64,000 nucleotides of DNA from Candidatus Gastranaerophilales bacterium (GTDB taxonomy: Bacteria; Cyanobacteriota; Vampirovibrionia; Gastranaerophilales; Gastranaerophilaceae), in contig CANQRH010000003.1 in the NCBI GenBank assembly GCA_947626225.1, forward strand, positions 161,363 to 225,362, given 5' to 3'. A program made the translations under genes and the position numbers. Shown here piece by piece: positions 43,571 through 48,923 of the stretch. Position 1 is the first letter of the stretch. Every line of letters starts with the position of its first letter. The notes beneath the pieces were generated by a model. The model did not search any database. It was not told the DNA's origin and worked only from the letters and a program-made list of their open reading frames with translations.

Positions 43571-44676
43571 TTAGGTTATGTTGCTTTCTCTGTATTGGTA
43601 TTTGGAAACGAGACCGACACTGTCTTTTATTTCTCTGTGATATTGCGTTACCGCCTCGCCGTAAGCCAGTTTATCTGAACTGCCGTTATAATTTGTTGCA
43701 GCAGTTTTAATATCGCCTTTACTTTTATTTAAGTATCTTCTTAAAACAAGAGTACCGAGTCTGATATTAAATTCCGGATCCTTATTCTCGGTAAGATAAT
43801 TAAATATTTTTGTGTAAAGCTCCTCTCTTTGTTCCTGAGTCTTTGCGTCTTTAGGATTAAAATTTCTGCTTAACAGAAGTTCTTCCATTTCAGGGCCGTA
43901 AATATTCTCTTTAATAGTGTGATATTTTTTATCTCCGGCATATCCCAAATAGTCTCTGATAGGAGATGATGTAAGCTGCATATAGCCTTTACCGTTTTTG
44001 CCCACAACTCTGGAATTTAAACCTTGGAATGCGACTTCACGCTGAATAATTGCAATTACAAGTGTCGGATCAACCCCGTATTCAACTCCTGAGTTTACTG
44101 CAAAATCAACCATATTATCAAACTCCTGAAGTAATTTTTTCTGTTCCGGAGTTCTTTTATCTTCATCGATTTTCTTTATATCCGGTATGTTTTTAAAATG
44201 TTTTATGATATTTCCGTTTTTGTCAGTTCCTTTATTAATAACATAATCTTCTAAAAGCTCTCTGTTGTATTGGAAATCGCATTCATTTTCATAAACCTTA
44301 TTGCCGGAATATCTTTTTATATGAGTTTTTACATATGTCATACCGAGTTTTTCGGATATATTTGTTGTACTTTCAAGTATAACTTTTCCAGTACTTTTTT
44401 CGGTAATTGTTTTACTGATGATGTTTCCGTTTTTTTGAATATTTATGTCAATATATCCGTTTTCTTCTTCAGATAAAGGTACGTTTGGGGGGGGGCGGAT
44501 GAAAAATCCAAAACTCTGTTAAATGTTTGCTTTAAAGAATCATCTTCGCCGAAAAAAGAATTAAACTTGAATCCGAATATAGCAGAACGGATATAATCCG
44601 AAAAGTTTCTCGGCTGTTTTACGGGTATTCCGTAATATTGATTTGATGACGCTGATACTTTCGGTGTATCCGGCAT
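43571..44676 (-). CDS. Lytic transglycosylase-like protein, interrupted by a one-base frameshift in a C9 tract
   Basis: The two frames join at a run of nine G (44487-44495, C on the coding strand); 7 or 10 C would give one open frame of 367-368 residues. As sequenced, the first frame gives 77 residues (44676-44443). The second is open from beyond the tract, with its first ATG at 44341. The SLT-type catalytic domain is in the second part: AIIQREVAF (catalytic Glu), GKGYMQLTS and AATNYNGS. The enzyme cleaves peptidoglycan, and a sigma-28-like promoter upstream suggests a flagellar role such as rod passage through the wall. AGGAGAAAAA precedes the ATG at 44676. The frameshift is either phase variation or a sequence error. 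Confidence 0.8.
44487..44495. repeat. G9 homopolymer tract inside the lytic transglycosylase gene
   Basis: Nine G on the plus strand (C9 in the coding strand), within an AT-rich region, exactly where the reading frame breaks. Only one other such tract, at 48775, was noticed in the window. Confidence 0.85.
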
Positions 44677-47898: not shown

Positions 47899-47955
47899 CA
47901 CAATTGTTTACAAAGTGAACTAAGTGCGTAACATCTGCTGAAAGGCTGCTTTTTA

Positions 47956-48803
47956 TTATATAGTGTCAAAGGGTATAATCCAATTGGCATTTTTACATTT
48001 TGAAATTGTTTTAAACAATTTATCATAAAATCGGAAATTTTTATACTTCATGATTGTATGGTGTGCATTTAAACCAATTAATTTTGTTTCAGAGTTTAAA
48101 AGTTGTATTAATTCATCTAAAATAACATTCTCCTTCTTAAGTTTAAACACTTGCCAATTTACAAAATCATAATCTATGTTGTAAGGAGAGTGTTCTTCTT
48201 TATAAAAATTTGATTCGGAAATAATAATATTTTCATTAATAAGTTTATCTTTAAGTGCTTGGCACATATTATTATACGGCGGTACAAATACAGGTAAAAG
48301 TCTGTTTTTAAATATGGTTTTAAAATAGTTATAGTGTTGCATTATCATTTCAAAACTTTTTTCAATATCACAAGTTTCAGGAAACTCAGAACAAGCGGGA
48401 GGTGTTGCATTATTTTGATGAAGAATACCGTGTACTACCGCATAATGGTTATATTTAAAAATATTTTTAGTAAAAATCTTACCGTAATCTTTGTAGTTTT
48501 TAGGTACTATTGCCCATATTGCCGAGATTTTGTATTTTGCCAATAATCTCATCATATACAAAGTTTTAAATTTGTATTTAATGTATTTCCATTTAAAAGT
48601 ATCTTTTTGTGCTCTTATATCATCATCACGCCACCAAAAAGATACCTCTCCGGCATTTTTCAATGCATTTTCAAACTCTGTCCATTTACTTTTTATGTCT
48701 GATTGCTTTTTAAAACAGCCGAACGAAAATTTCCGCGAAAAAAATTTAAAAAGGTTTAAATTAATAGCCTTCTTGGGGGGGGGGCAAGAACGATGTTATT
48801 CAT
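47956..48803 (-). CDS. Polysaccharide deacetylase-like protein, interrupted by a one-base frameshift in a C10 tract
   Basis: An ATG at 48803 with a strong GGAGG 6 nt upstream starts the reading frame, which meets a run of ten G (48775-48784, C on the coding strand); 8 or 11 C would give a single frame. As sequenced the frame after the tract is read from TTG at 48663 (235 residues). It shows deacetylase (NodB-like) features: SFWWRDDDIR, with metal-site acidic residues, HGILHQN, FVPPYNNM and LNAHHTI. Such enzymes trim acetyl groups from surface sugars. The gene is more AT-rich than its neighbours. It is alone between tadA (convergent) and a divergent gene. It is either phase-variable or mis-sequenced. 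Confidence 0.72.
48775..48784. repeat. G10 homopolymer tract near the start of the deacetylase gene
   Basis: Ten G on the plus strand (C10 in the coding strand), at codons 7-10 of the predicted gene; the frame breaks exactly here. Confidence 0.85.
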
Positions 48804-48908
48804 ATATTTACCTCCAATAATCTATCCTTAGAGTTCATTATTTATTATTTTTTAGAATTTGTCAAGAAAAAATTTTAGGGGAATTATATATAATTTAATA
48901 AAAATTTG

Positions 48909-48917
48909 TGCTAATCT
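48909..48917 (+). promoter_or_regulatory. Extended -10 element TGCTAATCT, 6 nt before the start at 48924
   Basis: TGC then TAATCT (48912-48917), 6 nt, then the ATG at 48924. No Shine-Dalgarno is present. Similar to the queF and rimI starts. Confidence 0.45.
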
Positions 48918-48923
48918 TTTACT

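Follow-up and report, generated by a model that had tools for sequence, protein, structure and literature searches.

Does a run of ten cytosines at the start of a putative polysaccharide deacetylase gene merely break this gene, or does it serve to switch it? The gene is located on the minus strand of a 64,000-nucleotide stretch of DNA from Candidatus Gastranaerophilales bacterium (contig CANQRH010000003.1; the whole analyzed stretch is referred to as the window). An earlier note on this DNA offered two answers, a contingency locus or a platform-wide homopolymer error. Our analysis upholds the former and speaks against the latter: the locus is very probably of the contingency type and not an artefact. 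The explanation that we prefer, and regard as highly likely, is a translational ON/OFF contingency locus operated by slipped-strand phase variation, in which a pilin-type switch is joined to a deacetylase. Its observed basis comprises the anatomy of the gene start, its out-of-frame state, the distribution of similar tracts in the genome and the family, the homology of the leader up to the tract, and the presence of another body behind this leader in a relative.

The C10 tract and the reading frames around it

The tract consists of exactly 10 G on the plus strand at positions 48775-48784, that is, 10 C on the coding minus strand, and starts within codon 7 counted from the ATG at 48803. At this length, the frame opened by the ATG reads MNNIVLAPPPRRLLI and ends at a stop after 15 codons; the frame that follows the tract, beginning with KKAINLNLFKFFSRKFSFGCFKKQSDIKSKWTEFENALKNAGEVSFWWRDDD, is offset from it by one base and is open for 272 codons, running through the WTEFENAL and WWRDDD segments. 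The start and body frames join when the tract is shortened to C8 or extended to C11, but not at C10. The homopolymer is far beyond chance length and lies within the 5' part of a reading frame, which are the marks of a contingency locus. The tract position and the one-base offset, the ATG preceded by GGAGG, and the succession of WTEFENAL and WWRDDD in the downstream frame all proved to be as the earlier note had described them. The features of the locus are listed below, where L025 denotes a pilin gene of the same genome and L028 the same locus in the closest relative found.

48837..48865, minus strand: promoter-like pair TTGACA-N17-AATAAT with 11 of 12 consensus matches, the top of the region; common to the leader of pilin L025
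48811..48815, minus strand: ribosome-binding site GGAGG, 7 bases 5' of the ATG; kept in the L025 and L028 leaders
48756..48803, minus strand: short frame of the predicted OFF product (MNNIVLAPPPRRLLI, then stop), from translation
48775..48784, minus strand: C10 tract (G10 on the plus strand), putative switch
48691..48803, minus strand: pilin-type leader (start, tract, and linker), ending at the AAA codon that replaces the start codon of the relatives
47956..48774, minus strand: 272-codon frame including the stop, with linker and polysaccharide-deacetylase-like body (WWRDDD, HGILH, VPPYN)

The limits of the pilin-type leader were set by the DNA similarity to the L025 leader, by the pilin gene that occupies this locus in L028, and by the place where the deacetylase relatives start.

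In the proposed mechanism, translation from the ATG at 48803 would meet the slippery C10 tract, and in the C10 state the ribosome would halt after 15 codons (OFF). Slipped-strand mispairing at the tract would alter its length, and either the gain of one C or the loss of two (C11 or C8, respectively) would fuse a leader of approximately 40 residues to a surface-sugar deacetylase (ON). We infer slippage in living cells and its reversibility, as well as the activity and substrate of the enzyme, presumably the deacetylation of surface sugars.

A deacetylase-like body behind a pilin-type leader

Other genera of the family contain relatives of the body that are 39-44% identical to it; remoter relatives are located on alphaproteobacterial plasmids, and one of these is annotated as a polysaccharide deacetylase family protein. 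The match to the Ruegeria protein with this annotation has an E-value of 2e-10, and the similarity to Ruegeria sp. TM1040 WP_011537299.1 extends over the full length at ~22% identity, with WWRDDD, HGxxH, and VPPxN in both proteins; in contrast to the window gene, the Ruegeria gene starts directly before the first motif and has neither tract nor leader. These three motifs, with their acidic and histidine residues, are conserved across the window body, the relatives L219-L222, and the Ruegeria protein. Moreover, L219, which is 44% identical to the window body, has a weak match to the Pfam family Polysacc_deac_1 (PF01522) with an E-value of 0.0013, below the cut-off. The sugar deacetylase assignment of the earlier note thus finds support in its homologs. 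A first scan of the genome contigs with the deacetylase gave no match, and an AlphaFold model for the NodB fold, computed from the single sequence without an alignment, reached a predicted local distance difference test score of 37, was unusable, and was left aside.

The deacetylase relatives possess neither a tract nor such a leader. Four of them start with M-x-KW or M-x-IW directly before a conserved E-F-E or E-L-E stretch, and L219 starts ~15 residues earlier. The window codon at the common start position of the relatives is AAA, not ATG; therefore, on present evidence, synthesis of the deacetylase requires the upstream start as well as read-through of the tract.

This 5' end is a pilin-type leader, a feature that goes beyond the earlier note. 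The leader of L025 is 75% identical to that of the window gene (E 5.6e-12), and the DNA match spans the promoter, the ribosome-binding site, the start, and the first codons. On the 5' side of the tract, the similarity between the two exceeds that of all 1000 shuffles, and on the 3' side it is not significant. In the closest relative found, with an FlhA 98% identical, the L028 locus between tadA and the TIGR02757 gene has similar upstream DNA with the promoter, the ribosome-binding site, the start, and a C10 leader; however, the body behind this leader is a pilin (FTLAEVLITLGIIGVVAA), after which the 3' flank matches the window again. The N-terminal methylation motif (FTLAE; Pfam PF07963) is above the cut-off in the L028 protein and absent from the window protein. 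Judged from these comparisons, the window gene resembles the pilins in its pilin-type leader but not in its body. The promoter, start, and tract would be of the type found with phase-variable type IV pilin-like genes in this lineage, and behind this switch the deacetylase body, with no start codon of its own at the homologous place, would form a leader-body fusion. We infer an exchange, in one direction or the other, between pilin and deacetylase bodies behind one type of switch. The simple alternative that a tract recently entered an intact deacetylase gene was considered and rejected for the window gene, given the homology of its 5' end with the pilin switches.

The extra genes located between tadA and the TIGR02757 gene (window positions 47899-48923; L028, L052, L057, L079, and L090 in relatives) differ from relative to relative, and thus this gap may be an insertion hotspot.

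Tracts in the genome, the genus, and the family

Runs of G in the window number 295 of length 3, 53 of length 4, and four of length 5; no G/C run of 6 to 8 is present, but there are one G9 and one G10. A scan of the whole genome (1.59 Mb) for G/C tracts of at least 8 nucleotides, as the earlier note had suggested, revealed 27 runs of at least 9 and none of exactly 8. Approximately 20 of the 27 tracts are situated within a long frame or ahead of one, usually a few to some tens of codons from the ATG, and as assembled ~8 of the tract genes are in frame and ~12 out of frame. Of these genes, nine code for type IV pilin-like proteins containing FTLAE or FSLAE; matches to the Pfam families Glyco_transf_9, Hexapep, Caps_synth, HAD hydrolase, Radical_SAM, and DUF1796 were obtained for others, and one further gene encodes an SLT transglycosylase-like protein. 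The deacetylase gene would be a member of this multi-locus set of switches. A neighboring gene has matches in metagenome-assembled genomes bearing the name Candidatus Gastranaerophilales. Similar tracts are present in 32 of 33 genomes of the genus, with up to 176 in one genome, and, at the level of the family, in 126 of 146; in three sampled genomes, the products of most tract genes are type IV pilin-like proteins or surface-sugar enzymes.

Length variation was compared between paralogs with similar leaders within genomes. In the genome of the closest relative found (G033), tract lengths are mostly 9 to 15, with one of 26, and they differ in five of nine paralog pairs in which both flanks are at least 80% identical. 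Another genome, G013, has 44 pilin-like genes with a tract soon after an ATG with a ribosome-binding site, of which 39 are in frame if the tract comprises 8, 11, or 14 nucleotides; here, lengths differ in one of seven close paralog pairs.

Several observations, chiefly on G013, bear on an alternative in which the G10 acts at the DNA level, for example as a recombination site or a replication-oriented site, and frame switching is secondary. At loci L108-L147 of this genome, GC skew identifies the G strand as the leading strand for 44 of 44 genic tracts, 5 of them in oppositely oriented genes, and a core T-C-G10-C...AGCTT motif surrounds the tracts, again also for oppositely oriented genes. In addition, many paralog pairs are similar on one side of the tract only, so that the tract forms the boundary to a dissimilar part. 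Against this alternative, nearly all tract genes of G013 have a frame that is open from the tract to the pilin body, which argues for translation through the tract and disfavors a purely non-coding role; we regard it as unlikely. The same observations are suggestive of a wider proposal, which we put forward tentatively, that the promoter, start codon, and G/C tract constitute a portable switch module for varied bodies, frequently joined at the tract, whose G strand stays on the leading strand whichever way the gene runs; differential conservation could yield the same patterns. If this proposal holds, these gut bacteria assemble a large repertoire of random surface switches and reshuffle it.

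According to a second alternative, the gene is truly in frame and the Cs were miscounted in the assembly. Long G/C runs are indeed hard to sequence, the exact C10 length rests on the assembly, and consensus calling could partly explain the uniform G10 tracts of G013. However, the tract as such is not an error, since many independent genomes have tracts clustered at gene starts and flanked by conserved sequence; in addition, several of the tract genes are in frame, and the window genes are left unbroken by long A/T runs: among the 75 A/T runs of at least 7 nucleotides, 49 are inside uninterrupted frames of at least 100 codons, and the other 26 lie between frames or at their edges. A platform-wide homopolymer error is not supported by this result, and a miscount at the tract itself appears improbable.

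A number of observations weigh against slipped-strand switching of a deacetylase. The window protein has no match over any Pfam or NCBIfam cut-off, including that of PF01522, and searches of Pfam, NCBIfam, and PDB with it assigned no family. The species is represented by a single assembled genome, so that variation of the C10 itself is a prediction. The mismatch-repair genes mutS1 and mutL are each above the cut-off in 31 of 32 genomes of the genus; loss of mismatch repair is not supported at the genus level as a cause, and switching would not rest on the absence of these genes. Finally, 40 of the 44 pilin tracts in G013 are exactly 10 nucleotides long and 36 require one more base, a uniformity that exceeds the expectation for free slippage and could reflect selection for the OFF state, a bias in consensus calling, or another mechanism. 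One such mechanism would be programmed or transcriptional slippage, in which slipping of RNA polymerase or of the ribosome on the C/G run yields a fraction of product from a fixed C10; the common length of these 36 genes, all with the same +1 correction, fits it. On the other hand, lengths and frame states vary among the genes of G033 and of the window genome, as predicted by changes in DNA length, and we give programmed slippage little credence. The view that the fusion is a dead pseudogene, with a tract of no present function, is the least credible: the deacetylase was found in only 1 of 33 genomes of the genus, lacks the homologous start codon, and is out of frame as assembled, but the 272-codon body has no internal stop, WWRDDD, HGxxH, and VPPxN are kept, and the promoter, ribosome-binding site, and start are well preserved.

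Known systems and other tract genes

Phase variation at the deacetylase locus would have its closest known parallels in Neisseria and Campylobacter. In Neisseria, the poly-G tract of the pilus protein gene pilC is located in the region for the signal peptide. The present genomes differ in that dozens of pilin-like genes have the tract themselves, within a long leader that is also placed before a sugar enzyme. For other Neisseria genes, such as hmbR and hpuA, a similar arrangement is described, a poly-G tract in the reading frame whose length sets the ON or OFF state (PMC5953494, PMC5084427). In the PhasomeIt survey of the Campylobacter poly-G/C phasome, tract lengths peak at 9 and 10, C is on the coding strand in only 5% of tracts, and the phase-variable genes of C. 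jejuni number 18-39 (PMC6321876). The present set shares with it the intragenic G/C tracts of mostly 9-10 repeats, the multi-locus organization, and, by the proposed mechanism, frame switching, but differs in phylum, in the many pilin-like targets, and in the frequency of C on the coding strand; moreover, some genomes of this genus have >100 tracts, part of them shown to be genic.

A search of an open-access library found no paper joining 'phase variation' with 'Gastranaerophilales' or 'Vampirovibrionia'. What is new here is that the switch, from the sequence comparisons, looks modular. The tract pattern suggests random ON/OFF switching of surface parts in these bacteria, and related genomes contain dozens of switch-like genes, mostly for hair-like surface fibers. 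If our reading is right, a gut lineage that is common and consists of non-photosynthetic relatives of cyanobacteria directs its tract sets at pilin-like proteins and surface sugars, and in some genomes these sets are larger than those reported for Campylobacter. It would also explain the many seemingly broken pilin genes in single assemblies and provide a testable case of a non-variable gene acquiring a switch.

The window contains a second long C tract, also out of frame, as the earlier note had reported:

44487..44495, minus strand: C9 tract in a transglycosylase (SLT) gene, out of frame
43571..44676, minus strand: SLT-domain gene split by the C9 tract, with the upstream part from 44676 and the downstream frame ending at 43571

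The SLT ortholog in L028 is an open frame without a tract, and by this comparison the C9 tract is one gained in place. Insertion of a tract into an intact gene fits the SLT gene, unlike the deacetylase gene.

Several minor observations concern other tract genes. Immediately ahead of the pilin body, many G013 pilin leaders (e.g., L145 and L115) contain TGCTATAATAGTGATATG, an extended -10 box with an ATG approximately at the expected transcript start; a second, leaderless start is possible in these pilins. In G033, three adjacent genes on contig C13 (L168), two of them glycosyltransferase-like, have a common short leader MKHxNIxQ and tracts of C12 to C14. In the same genome (L185/L172), one pilin tract is interrupted, G10-A-GG versus G13 in paralogs, as if locked, and another tract comprises 26 G.
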